Source: a virus. Taken from it: a stretch of 49,772 nucleotides of DNA. Location: IMG/VR virus record IMGVR_UViG_3300046543_000521, positions 1 through 49,772 of that record; one strand, 5' to 3'. How positions within the stretch are numbered: the stretch's first letter is position 1; each line of letters opens with the position of its first letter. A model generated the notes under the pieces. That model ran no database searches, was not told the origin of the DNA, and worked only from the letters and a program-made list of their open reading frames with translations. Shown here one piece after another: positions 2,818-49,621 of this stretch. The position numbers and the translations under genes were made by a program.

Positions 2818-3216
2818 TCAATTCTTCTTACTGTTTCGCCAGAGAGTTTGAGTCTCCAACGCTGTCGATAGGAATTGCCGTCTGCGGTGCTCGTAATCGA
2901 TACCCCGATTTTTCAGTTCATCGCAGTAGTGTATAGAGTCTAACATTTCCTGGAACAGTTCCTCCATCGGATCGCCATCAAATTCTGTACTGTTTCGGTG
3001 AGATAGTACACCGTCTGCATATTTCAAGTCAAGCGCTTCTTTAATAGGAAGTTTGATGTACCGGTAGAAAGAGCTGGAAGAGTCCAGTTGCAGTTCGGAC
3101 GCCGGTTTACATGCCATGAGTTTGAGAAATATAGCGGCACGTTCCGTAGAAGTAAACCCGCTATGATGAGACTCAAGTAGTTCGCAAATGATCTCTGAGG
3201 CTTTCGAGGCACTCAT
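2818..3216 (-). CDS. Hypothetical helical protein
   Basis: 132 residues, mostly helical by composition, no recognised motif. The start ATG overlaps the upstream zinc-ribbon gene stop (ATGA), indicating translational coupling. The gene ends one base before the next coding region. It may work with the zinc-ribbon protein encoded just upstream, but nothing in the sequence proves this. Confidence 0.6.
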   Translation of the reverse strand: MSASKASEIICELLESHHSGFTSTERAAIFLKLMACKPASELQLDSSSSFYRYIKLPIKEALDLKYADGVLSHRNSTEFDGDPMEELFQEMLDSIHYCDELKNRGIDYEHRRRQFLSTALETQTLWRNSKKN

Positions 3217-3476
3217 GCGATAGGCGTTCCAGTAACGGGATTTGGTGTTCCAGTAACGGGATTTTGTGTAATTTTAGGTCTACGTCCGCGACCGGCTAAT
3301 TTCGGGCGGTCCCAGTGTTTGGATTTACATGTCGGGCAAATGCGCGGCAGTCCCTCGGAGAGCTTACTACGTTTCTCCCAGTTATGTCCGCACTTCTGGC
3401 AAGAGTAGCCGGTAGCGGTAATGTGCGGCCCTTCGGGGGCTATGATTCCTGTGACTAAGATGATTTTAGATTCCAT
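3213..3476 (-). CDS. Zinc-ribbon protein, first gene of left operon
   Basis: 87 residues. CQKCGHNW and CPTCKSKHW make a classical four-Cys zinc ribbon (about residues 25-58), followed by a basic stretch (GRGRRPK), typical of small DNA- or RNA-binding phage proteins. The tail repeats NPVTGTP twice, encoded by a 21-bp tandem repeat. There is no ribosome site; instead an extended -10 box (TGG-TACACT) ends 7 nt before the ATG, suggesting a leaderless transcript. It likely heads the leftward operon. Confidence 0.7.
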   Translation of the reverse strand: MESKIILVTGIIAPEGPHITATGYSCQKCGHNWEKRSKLSEGLPRICPTCKSKHWDRPKLAGRGRRPKITQNPVTGTPNPVTGTPIA

Positions 3477-46695: not shown

Positions 46696-47268
46696 ATGCA
46701 TATCAGTTATTCGGCAATGGATCGCTTCCTACAGTCTCGCTGCGGGCAGCCGTGGGATAAAGTATACTCAGAAATACGCAAACGAGATCTCTTCACATTC
46801 TGGCGTAGAATGTACCCGCACGATCACCTGCCTGTAGCCGAGAAAACCTATACAGGTGCCGATGGACATATCTACGGGTGCGGATGGCAAGGAGTCCATC
46901 GTATCGGCGGGGCTAACTGGACACGATACAGCTTTTATGTCGATCAAGCTGGCATCCTGCGTAGCCGGGCTAAATTGCGATTGGAATATAAACGGGAACA
47001 ATCGGCCAAAAGAACGGCCAAATCTGTCGATAGAATACCGGCTAGCGGAAACTGCACATACGTTAAAGAAAATGGAATCTGGTACTTGGAAACGAAATCC
47101 GTTCTTACTTACACCTATAGACATCCGGCCATAGATCCGGTCACGGGTGAAAAAAACTCCAAGCTGGACACTGTCGATAAGATAATCGTTAGGAAAAAAC
47201 AACTCAATAAAAAGGAATTGAAACAGTTATGTCAGATGCAATTGACTGTCTCGACACGAACGAGATAG
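46696..47268 (+). CDS. Hypothetical conserved protein (RPWDKVYSEI type)
   Basis: 190 residues from ATG 46696 (GTG 46666 also possible). MDRFLQSRCGQPWDKVYSEI matches a motif I recall from a conserved uncharacterised bacterial/phage family (RFL-x-R-x-G-RPWDKVYSE). Middle: beta strands with YVDQAGILR and GIWYLETKSV, end: basic VRKKQLNKKELKQL. Function unknown. The next gene starts inside its last codons. Confidence 0.6.
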   Translation: MHISYSAMDRFLQSRCGQPWDKVYSEIRKRDLFTFWRRMYPHDHLPVAEKTYTGADGHIYGCGWQGVHRIGGANWTRYSFYVDQAGILRSRAKLRLEYKREQSAKRTAKSVDRIPASGNCTYVKENGIWYLETKSVLTYTYRHPAIDPVTGEKNSKLDTVDKIIVRKKQLNKKELKQLCQMQLTVSTRTR

Positions 47269-47417
47269 TATGCCCATACTGCGGCTATGAATTTTCCGAA
47301 TCATGGACATACTTTGAGTCCTCTGGTAATGAAGAAAAAATACAATGTCCAGAATGCGATCAAAAATTTACTTGTTCGCCAGACTACACTGTGACATACT
47401 ACTCTCGTAAGTTATAA
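47229..47417 (+). CDS. Small zinc-ribbon protein
   Basis: 62 residues. CPYCGYEF and CPECDQKF form a typical zinc ribbon (about residues 15-48). AAGGA lies about 13 nt upstream of the ATG. Overlaps the preceding gene by 40 bp. Ends 2 nt before the tmRNA-like RNA. Likely a nucleic acid or protein adaptor. Confidence 0.65.
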   Translation: MSDAIDCLDTNEIVCPYCGYEFSESWTYFESSGNEEKIQCPECDQKFTCSPDYTVTYYSRKL

Positions 47418-47419
47418 AC

Positions 47420-47497
47420 GGGCGTGAGAATGGCTTCGACGGCAAGTAAGCCCTACAAGGAACTTGTCGGACGCGGGATCGATACCCGCCACGTCCA
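47420..47497 (+). ncRNA. tmRNA-like tRNA-domain RNA without messenger domain
   Basis: 78 nt. Acceptor stem GGGCGTG (47420-47426) pairs with CACGTCC (47490-47496) with a G3-U70 wobble, the alanine identity pair kept in all tmRNAs; A73 follows. GGCTTCGACGGC matches the conserved 5' stretch of tmRNA. The T-arm is GCGGG-ATCGATA-CCCGC. The 3' part (AGGAACTTGTCGGACGCGGG) closely resembles the 3' end of bacterial tmRNA as I recall it from E. coli. A short ACAAG-GAA-CTTGT hairpin replaces the usual P2 to pseudoknot region and reading frame. No CCA is encoded. Confidence 0.72.
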
Positions 47498-47502
47498 CTT
47501 TT

Positions 47503-47616
47503 ATGATTGTCAAAGTCTATATGAGATCAGCAGATGATTGGAGTTACGAAGAATGGATGGCAGCACAAACTCAAGAAGATCTTAATGAGGAAGATGAGCC
47601 AGGAACCTGCTTTTAA
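47503..47616 (+). CDS. 37-residue acidic ORF
   Basis: ATG at 47503, 6 nt after the tmRNA-like RNA. Its first 18 bases are identical to the start of the gene at 47747 (both open MIVKVY), then it diverges to a Glu/Asp-rich peptide (EEWMAAQTQEDLNEEDEPG). No ribosome site. It may be a decayed duplicate or a short real peptide. Confidence 0.3.
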   Translation: MIVKVYMRSADDWSYEEWMAAQTQEDLNEEDEPGTCF

Positions 47617-47746
47617 AGGCATCTTAAATCACTTTATCTGCTTTTGAAAGCACTAACGCTAATGGGCGAAACCTCATGACCACCTCACTCGTTGTTATGA
47701 GGCTGGTAGGCAGCGTGTACTTACCGGACCGGCTCAGGTAGGAAAT
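47608..47746 (+). repeat. Hairpins and repeated segments
   Basis: Two near-identical hairpins, TGCTTTTAAAGGCA (47608-47621) and TGCTTTTGAAAGCA (47639-47652). A further stem CCTCAT / ATGAGG spans about 47672-47702. GCTGGTAGGCAGCGTGTACT near 47711 recurs as GCTGGTAGGCGGCGTGTACT near 47882 inside the next gene, so this stretch seems to be a degenerate duplicate of that gene's first part. Confidence 0.4.
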
Positions 47747-48136
47747 ATGATTGTCAAAGTCTATCGTAATCTCAAACACGGACGGTCGGCAGCCCCGCTG
47801 TATTCAGTATTATACAAAGGAAAAGTGATTGCCAGGAAACACAGAGTCCTACTCCGTGATGCGCATTTCATTGTCAATGAAGCTGGTAGGCGGCGTGTAC
47901 TCGAAAGCGGACATAAAAATGTGCATGCTTTTGTCGTCGGAACCTTAACAAATGAACATGGATGTTTCGGTATAGATGCCGATGGAAATGATTTTAGAAT
48001 GCGCGTAACTTACGACCCGCGAAAAGGCCCGCACTTCGTTACAGCAACGGCTCCGGTAGGAAGAATTGTAAAAAGTGCTCTCGGCGTACTGCTGAATGAG
48101 CGTGGTATCAGCGCCTGCTATCTGGAAACTGCTTGA
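47747..48136 (+). CDS. Conserved hypothetical phage protein
   Basis: 129 residues; AGGTAGG before the ATG. VYRNLKHG, APLYSVLYKGKVIARKHRVL, RRRVLESGHKNVHAFVVG and a C-terminal beta domain resemble a conserved small phage protein with the KNVHAFV motif. Its biological role is unknown. Basic N-terminal half suggests nucleic-acid contact. Confidence 0.65.
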   Translation: MIVKVYRNLKHGRSAAPLYSVLYKGKVIARKHRVLLRDAHFIVNEAGRRRVLESGHKNVHAFVVGTLTNEHGCFGIDADGNDFRMRVTYDPRKGPHFVTATAPVGRIVKSALGVLLNERGISACYLETA

Positions 48137-48670: not shown

Positions 48671-48744
48671 GCTCCAGTAGTCCAATTGGCAGAGGCGTCT
48701 CATTCAAAATGAGAATGTTGGGGGTTCGAATCCCTTCTGGAGTA
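48671..48744 (+). tRNA. tRNA-Leu (CAA), short variable loop
   Basis: Acceptor GCTCCAG pairs with CTGGAGT (one G-T), A73. Anticodon stem TCTCA/TGAGA, loop TTCAAAA, anticodon CAA at about 48704-48706. T-arm GGGGG-TTCGAAT-CCCTT. The variable region is only about 5 nt, whereas bacterial tRNA-Leu normally has a long variable arm. No CCA is encoded. Confidence 0.8.
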
Positions 48745-48776: not shown

Positions 48777-49541
48777 GTGGGTACGAGAACATGGAAAGAT
48801 TCAGAATTGAAAAGAGCTGTTTTACAGAATATTTCCATGGCCGGAGTCCTACGACAGTTAAATTTATCGCCAAAAGGAGGGTCATATAAATCGGTCAAAA
48901 AGCATATAGAGAGACTGAAATTGGAGACTTCGCATTGGCGGGGGATGGCATGGGCGGCTGGGACTACATTACTGAGACAAGCTATACCTCTAGATGAGAT
49001 ACTTGTTGAACATTCGTTTTACGGCACAGCAGCTTTACGTAGAAGACTTCTAATAGCCGGTCTTAAGAAAGCGGCCTGCGAAAAATGCGGGCTTAAACAG
49101 TGGTTTGACGATCCAGTACCATTGGAACTTGATCACATAAATGGGGATCACTGCGACAATAGAATATCTAATCTACAGATATTATGTGCAAATTGTCATG
49201 CTATTAAGACAAAGAGACAAAGCGCTGAATCTCGTAAGGAGTCTAGAAAGTGTCCATTATGCGGTATTTCGATAGCCAAACGCAGTAAGTTGTGTCAGAA
49301 ATGCAGATTTATAGCAGCTCCAAGAACGCCAAAAATAAATTGGCCAGAGGACACTATCCTCCTTCAGGCGCATCGGGATAGAAAAGTATTACCGCTCGCT
49401 CGTAGTTTGGGAGTTAGTGATGGAGCAATTCATAAACGAATTAGGAAAATTAAACTCAAGGTAGTTCTAACGGTAGAACATAAGTGTGAAGAACTTAGTG
49501 TTGGCAGTTCGAATCTGCCCCTTGAGACTTTGGGTAAGTAG
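48777..49541 (+). CDS. HNH endonuclease with HTH domains in the tRNA cluster
   Basis: 254 residues, GTG start. N-terminal helical domain (residues 1-55, WKDSELKRAVLQNISMAGVL) resembles the specificity part of HNH homing enzymes. HNH core: CEKCG (about 102-106), LELDHINGDHCDNRISNLQI, LCANCHA. A second zinc knuckle pair follows (CPLCG, CQKCR), then a C-terminal HTH (ARSLGVSDGAIHKRIRKIKL). The last 29 codons lie in the tRNA-Phe gene and first bases of tRNA-Tyr. Likely a free-standing homing endonuclease. Confidence 0.82.
   Translation: MGTRTWKDSELKRAVLQNISMAGVLRQLNLSPKGGSYKSVKKHIERLKLETSHWRGMAWAAGTTLLRQAIPLDEILVEHSFYGTAALRRRLLIAGLKKAACEKCGLKQWFDDPVPLELDHINGDHCDNRISNLQILCANCHAIKTKRQSAESRKESRKCPLCGISIAKRSKLCQKCRFIAAPRTPKINWPEDTILLQAHRDRKVLPLARSLGVSDGAIHKRIRKIKLKVVLTVEHKCEELSVGSSNLPLETLGK
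49455..49527 (+). tRNA. tRNA-Phe (GAA)
   Basis: Acceptor CTCAAGG/CCTTGAG, perfect 7 bp, A73. D-stem GTTC/GAAC, anticodon stem TAAGT/ACTTA, loop GTGAAGA with anticodon GAA (Phe), T-arm GGCAG-TTCGAAT-CTGCC. Overlaps the 3' end of the HNH frame. No encoded CCA. Confidence 0.88.
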
Positions 49542-49616
49542 ACATTTAAGGGGAATGGGCAGGCTGTAACCCTGTTAGCGGCAACGCTCCTCTCGGCTCG
49601 AATCCGAGCTTACCCA
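49532..49616 (+). tRNA. tRNA-Tyr (GTA)
   Basis: Acceptor GGGTAAG/CTTACCC, A73. Anticodon stem GCAGG/CCTGT, loop CTGTAAC, anticodon GTA. Long variable arm AGCG-gcaa-CGCT, as expected of bacterial tRNA-Tyr. T-arm CTCGG-CTCGAAT-CCGAG. Begins inside the last codons of the HNH frame. Confidence 0.88.
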
Positions 49617-49621
49617 CTTAG

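Follow-up and report, generated by a model that had tools for sequence, protein, structure and literature searches.

What use could a phage make of a transfer-messenger RNA (tmRNA) that carries no message? The question is raised by a 78-nt element at positions 47420-47497 (plus strand) of a 49,772-bp IMG/VR record, IMGVR_UViG_3300046543_000521, which was analysed at its full length and is referred to here as the window. The window is from a tailed phage (portal, tape measure, head protease and head protein genes, capsid), for which no close named relatives were found with the DNA and proteins tried. An initial annotation had taken the element for a tmRNA cut down to its tRNA-like domain (TLD), and this is borne out: what lies at 47420-47497 is a complete TLD of tmRNA from which the message part is gone (Rfam RF00023).

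The Rfam covariance search proposed in that annotation gave 57.5 bits against a cut-off of 47. The alignment spans the model from end to end (1-374), with more than 300 model positions deleted and a 14-nt loop alone in their place. Because the pseudoknots and the tag reading frame with its resume codon and stop are deleted, the window RNA is not a working tmRNA. What it does share with tmRNA are the acceptor stem, the T arm and the D-loop-like region, together with G3-U70 and A73; the coordinates, the 7-bp acceptor stem, the TTCGAC stretch and the tmRNA-like 3' part described initially are likewise all present. In addition, a covariance model of our own (R1), derived from 20 members of the family described below, the window RNA not among them, recovers this RNA at exactly 47420-47497 (57.4 bits, E 1.3e-11).

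Without CCA, the 78 nt of the plus strand read GGGCGTG-AGAATGGCTTCGA-CGGCAAGT-AAGCCCTACAAGGA-ACTTGTCG-GAC-GCGGG-ATCGATA-CCCGC-CACGTCC-A. The 5' strand of the acceptor stem (47420-47426) contains G3 of the alanine identity pair G3-U70 and is followed by the D-loop-like segment (47427-47439), in which TCGA includes the counterparts of U17 and G19 in E. coli, both of which contact SmpB (PMC8363625). The strands of the P2 helix (47440-47447 and 47462-47469) enclose an apical part (47448-47461) that replaces the pseudoknots and the tag frame, and that in relatives consists of a purine-rich internal loop and a 3-bp hairpin. Behind P2 stands GAC (47470-47472), whose A is the equivalent of E. coli A334 in the SmpB pocket, and then come the T arm (47473-47489), the 3' strand of the acceptor stem with U70 (47490-47496) and the discriminator A73 (47497). 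The predicted fold comprises the 7-bp acceptor stem, P2 and the T arm (-30.7 kcal/mol, z -2.3). P2 has 8 pairs, CGGCAAGU/ACUUGUCG, so that the 5-bp hairpin described initially has to be corrected, being the inner part of this helix. CCA is not encoded, CTT following A73, and therefore must be added.

We then asked how widely this form, called mini here, occurs. A first pattern, run over IMG/VR, fixed no more than TTCGAC, GGAC and a portion of the T arm; among the matches listed, most were RNAs that shared this shape but differed considerably in sequence. The search was then divided by the first free P2 pair into three scans, which gave 71, 110 and 96 stretches in complete listings, and a scan on the apical motif gave 42. 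With only loci having full acceptor and T stems admitted, the set comprises 309 loci (295 IMG/VR contigs, 10 loci in bacterial assemblies, three named phages and the window), which reduce to 208 distinct sequences and to 118 with a paired P2 at less than 85% identity; these counts are lower bounds, since a fourth class of first P2 pair had no scan of its own and diverged members such as that of phage Riptide escape the patterns. A pattern of this kind, applied to 84,980 genomes of bacteria and archaea, matched 58 stretches, mostly ordinary tmRNA 3' ends and about ten minis; two of the mini-bearing contigs carry terminase or portal genes and are therefore phage DNA. The minis measure 63-82 nt as a rule, against about 350 nt for a standard tmRNA. 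A shorter class of 63-65 nt (L042, L057, L076, L116 and L154) has P2 closed directly by a small loop.

The helices of the family covary. P2 pairs 2-7, anchored solely by sequence, are paired in 79-98% of cases as against 40-50% with shuffled partners, and none of 2000 shuffles reached the observed value. In A2, which aligns without gaps the 20 members used for R1, pairing holds in 96.7% of cells, and both sides have changed in 120 cells versus 36 in shuffles; the covariation score is 0.708, compared with 0.157 after shuffling and no more than 0.14 (0.139 at most) when the partner is slid. Strong covariation is found in the acceptor, P2, apical (3-bp hairpin) and T helices. Chance similarity is ruled out by the P2 covariation and the independent match to R1. 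Judged from its sequences, then, the RNA is real, widespread and, by its divergence, old.

Conservation of single nucleotides indicates what this divergence has spared. G3-U70 is present in 118 of 118 sequences, while acceptor pairs 4-6 vary freely. As U70 was fixed in three of the scans, the fair test is the apical-motif scan, which left free positions 3, 70, 73, 17-21 and A334 (the UUCGAC stretch was thus not fixed) and yielded 32 distinct sequences. All 32 have G3-U70 in a 7-bp acceptor stem, A73, A334, and G19 and A20; U17 is found in 31, whereas the neighbouring U16 varies (U in 24 of 32). The nucleotides of the SmpB interface, U17, G19 and A334, are therefore retained at the sequence level. 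By cryo-EM, the pocket that receives SmpB Trp122 is made up of A15, U17 and A334, G19 packs against the protein, and the G19C mutation abolishes tmRNA-SmpB binding (PMC8363625). BLAST also led to the minis of Riptide and Alone3, in which UUCGAC or GGAC is partly lost; both retain G3-U70, G19 and A334. With G3-U70, A73, A334, G19, A20 and U17 kept while acceptor pairs 4-6 and U16 are free, the alanine and SmpB identities are what selection retains.

The partner of such an RNA would have to come from the host. SmpB was found in none of 50 records searched (45 from IMG/VR and five named phages), an absence that is indicative only, most of these records being fragments; the control search found SmpB in ten bacterial control genomes. 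Thus, any SmpB partner must be supplied by the host. Apart from the mini, the sole strong match, no second tmRNA match above the cut-off was found in the mini-bearing records searched. In the bacterial assemblies, a full tmRNA of 366-398 nt is present in eight of the ten that carry a mini, and in six of these eight the mini and the full tmRNA have different acceptor stems; thus, the mini is neither the host tmRNA nor a fresh copy of one. A split tmRNA whose coding piece lies elsewhere was also rejected, both halves of the TLD being on one closed RNA and the mini-bearing records having no comparable second tmRNA match. Nor does the P2 loop hide a very short tag frame, as no GCN codon with an in-frame stop is conserved across members.

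What, then, would the RNA do? By analogy with the same form elsewhere, we consider it probable that the mini is a phage antagonist of host trans-translation, likely through charged entry into ribosomes. The gene would give a stable RNA of 78-81 nt, the TLD of tmRNA capped by a short P2 hairpin, which host tRNA-maturing enzymes would cut from the phage transcript and to which CCA would be added. The RNA could then be charged with alanine through G3-U70 and A73, be bound by host SmpB and EF-Tu, and become a rival of host tmRNA for both SmpB and stalled ribosomes. On such a ribosome it would donate its alanine and offer no reading frame, so that neither an SsrA tag nor a normal stop codon would follow. 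Overall, host trans-translation would be inhibited, and proteins would remain untagged or bear extra alanines. For the same form elsewhere, two activities are established, namely inhibition of tmRNA in vivo (mycobacteriophage DS6A) and ribosome entry with template-free alanine transfer in vitro (TLD with SmpB). The effect proposed initially, alanylated entry without a message and a consequent block of host trans-translation, agrees with these experiments (PMC11915505, PMC4131195, PMC2481249).

The DS6A form is reported in a 2025 database paper to inhibit endogenous tmRNA in E. coli, in a passage that names no other phage with a TLD-only form (PMC11915505). Mao et al. 2009, as cited in the passage on this form in PMC4131195, found that a DS6A-like molecule strongly inhibits tmRNA whether or not it can be charged with alanine, and titration of SmpB is suggested there as a possible cause. 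If titration were all, the alanine pair should have drifted in some of the 118 lineages, and in none did it do so. The universal G3-U70, the most telling single observation, thus suggests that charging matters and not SmpB titration alone, and argues that charged ribosome entry may be part of the function, giving a stronger block or alanine extensions.

Several points weigh against an antagonist. For the window RNA, we infer its expression, processing, charging, SmpB binding and effect, and likewise any benefit that the phage draws from it. The DS6A-like molecule inhibits charged or uncharged (PMC4131195, the same passage), and pure titration of SmpB would leave the universal G3-U70 unexplained. 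Moreover, some phages need host trans-translation, such as lambda-immP22 (PMC2481249), so inhibition is of no obvious advantage to a phage.

The same constituents could also serve rescue. Charged RNA and host SmpB might enter ribosomes stalled on broken phage mRNAs and add one or more alanines, whereupon the chain would be freed by another factor and phage proteins would be spared the SsrA tag; the outcome would be a different kind of rescue and not a blockade. An activity of this kind has been described in vitro for an engineered TLD with SmpB: as Shimizu and Ueda 2006 is described in the passages concerned of PMC2481249 and PMC3929946, SmpB and the TLD alone make polyalanine without a template, the chain being handed from one TLD to the next. 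G3-U70 and A73 are retained without exception, although the similar molecule of PMC4131195 is described there as inhibiting without charging. However, such tailing supplies no release step, and the sole in vivo result on a TLD-only form is inhibition of tmRNA; we therefore regard it as rather unlikely. As a tentative proposition, the minis would be a widespread and diverse class of phage RNA, selected for alanine charging, that diverts host trans-translation to template-free alanine addition on stalled ribosomes. That the mini has no role in trans-translation, and mainly marks phage operons for splitting as a tRNA-like processing signal or soaks up AlaRS, EF-Tu or tRNA enzymes as a sponge, is improbable. 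Its position between tightly packed genes, such as those for protease and major head protein or for terminase and portal, would suit a signal, but its place relative to genes changes from phage to phage, and a plain signal would not need the SmpB-meeting G19, A20, A334 and U17, retained while U16 varies.

Two other origins can be set far lower. Phages often integrate in tmRNA genes, and in a Pseudomonas phage record (OQ658364) a full tmRNA is overlapped by an att site, so a decayed tmRNA or an att-site remnant deserves mention. Both halves of the TLD are retained, however, and the helices covary over many nonredundant sequences. About 200 divergent relatives with compensating changes, and acceptor and T stems mostly unlike those of the full tmRNA in the same assembly (acceptor stem, six of eight assemblies), led to the rejection of this origin, which is very improbable. 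An ordinary tRNA-Ala or diverged tRNA, to which the alanine identity, the T arm and the location of some family members within tRNA arrays might point, is almost out of the question: the anticodon arm and loop of a tRNA are missing, the 8-bp P2 with its 14-nt loop being there instead, RF00023 scores above the tRNA family, which belongs to its clan, and ARAGORN, which calls three tRNAs nearby, calls none at 47420-47497. A regular tRNA fold, named initially as what would overturn the tmRNA reading, thus does not score higher.

The form has been on record from one phage, DS6A, listed as 'TLD only' tmRNA by Hudson et al. 2014 (PMC4131195; tmRNA Website tmID 11587). Like the minis, it is a phage gene of little more than the TLD with both halves on one RNA; it is a single case, whereas about 300 contigs of unrelated phages are described here, and the likeness is drawn from its published description. 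No further description of a phage TLD-only tmRNA was found in the literature searched, with subscription journals mostly outside it. As far as this literature shows, the scale, the conservation, the contexts and the argument for charging appear to be new. Compared with standard tmRNA (RF00023), the minis share the acceptor stem, the D-loop-like GG..UUCGAC, GGAC, the T arm, G3-U70, A73 and the start of P2, and differ in having neither pseudoknots nor tag frame. The CDS-less tmRNAs of jakobid mitochondria and Mallomonadaceae plastids (the latter about 65 bp in the passage concerned of PMC11915505; for the organellar form see also Jacob 2004, as cited in PMC7050145) are the organelle's own tmRNA, whereas the mini is an additional copy carried by a virus. 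TLD fragments engineered for work with SmpB, in which the TLD halves are joined by UUCG, have the same architecture but are made in the laboratory and lack the apical purine loop and 3-bp hairpin; the 63-65 nt class has nearly the same design as such fragments in structural work. Full-length tmRNAs are known from phages too (mycobacteriophages such as Bxz1, Streptomyces phages such as Daubenski, Methylophilales phage Melnitz), often near tRNA genes, but they encode a tag or are of the two-piece type, and none was seen beside a mini in the mini-bearing records.

Some candidates were removed from the set. Gordonia phage GMA2 (L182), which seemed a mini by BLAST, has an unannotated full tmRNA at 60389-60800 (94.6 bits), upstream of a 16-tRNA array. 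Pseudomonas phage SM1 (L379) has an unannotated permuted full tmRNA of the two-piece type at 2922-3313, and PaMx31, UF_RH6 and PA_L9 give a similar BLAST match at the same 3' end. The att-site tmRNA of OQ658364 is also full-length. In Microbacterium phage Armstrong (L183), an unannotated RNA at 2938-3027 has a G3-U70 acceptor, a tmRNA-like T arm and a longer middle (R1, 36.8 bits); without UUCGAC it was not counted, and it is perhaps a diverged relative of the minis.

In the window, the RNA lies between two open reading frames (ORFs) on the same strand. The upstream ORF (47229-47417) encodes 62 aa with two CxxC motifs, and its stop codon is 2 nt before the RNA; the downstream one (47503-47616, 37 aa) begins 5 nt after it. 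The first 18 nt of the latter recur at the start of an ORF at 47747, within a perfect 19-nt direct repeat (TATGATTGTCAAAGTCTAT) at 47502-47520 and 47746-47764 that forms the start of both ORFs. Together with a second repeat of 25 nt at 47697 and 47877, this suggests a partial duplication of the gene directly after the RNA. Near the RNA, no terminator-like site and no telling promoter were found. The closest ordinary tRNA gene is tRNA-Leu(CAA) at 48671-48744, and tRNA-Phe and tRNA-Tyr genes follow at 49455-49617 (ARAGORN), all on the plus strand. Between tRNA-Leu and tRNA-Phe is an HNH endonuclease gene (48777-49541), the ORF of which runs into tRNA-Phe.

Elsewhere, minis occupy the gap between terminase and portal (L003), separate the major head protein gene from that of the head protease (L007 and several others), or adjoin a DnaB-like helicase (L065, L042). 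A tRNA lies within 1 kb of the mini in only 23 of the 80 loci with 1 kb on both sides; therefore, the mini stands alone in most phages. BLAST with the window RNA against named phages returned only 3'-end fragments and unrelated matches. Among named phages of Streptomyces, at least six (BRock, LuckySocke, Alone3, pSt2308, Riptide and Shaeky) carry an unannotated mini that fills a gap in the tRNA array, and several of them have an RNA ligase gene near it. In four Streptomyces phage loci (L180, L181, L382 and L383), the order tRNA-Val, mini, tRNA-Ser or tRNA-Cys, thioredoxin, RNA ligase is conserved; the ligase in this module hints at repair of cleaved tRNAs.

Nearly all bacteria rescue ribosomes by means of tmRNA. 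That about 300 viral contigs, and isolated phages of Streptomyces as well, carry the same RNA with nearly invariant nucleotides for AlaRS and SmpB indicates that many phages may gain by interfering with or redirecting trans-translation. The TLD-only tmRNA of DS6A, as a single case on record, is easily mistaken for a curiosity; with a family, why phages would interfere with trans-translation becomes testable. The minis also account for unannotated gaps in phage tRNA arrays, which are unannotated because ARAGORN largely misses this form, and, as probable small natural antagonists of tmRNA, they offer themselves as tools. If the reading of alanine addition is true, they would represent in nature what the TLD-SmpB polyalanine reaction is in vitro, and give viruses a route to alter the fate of stalled proteins.
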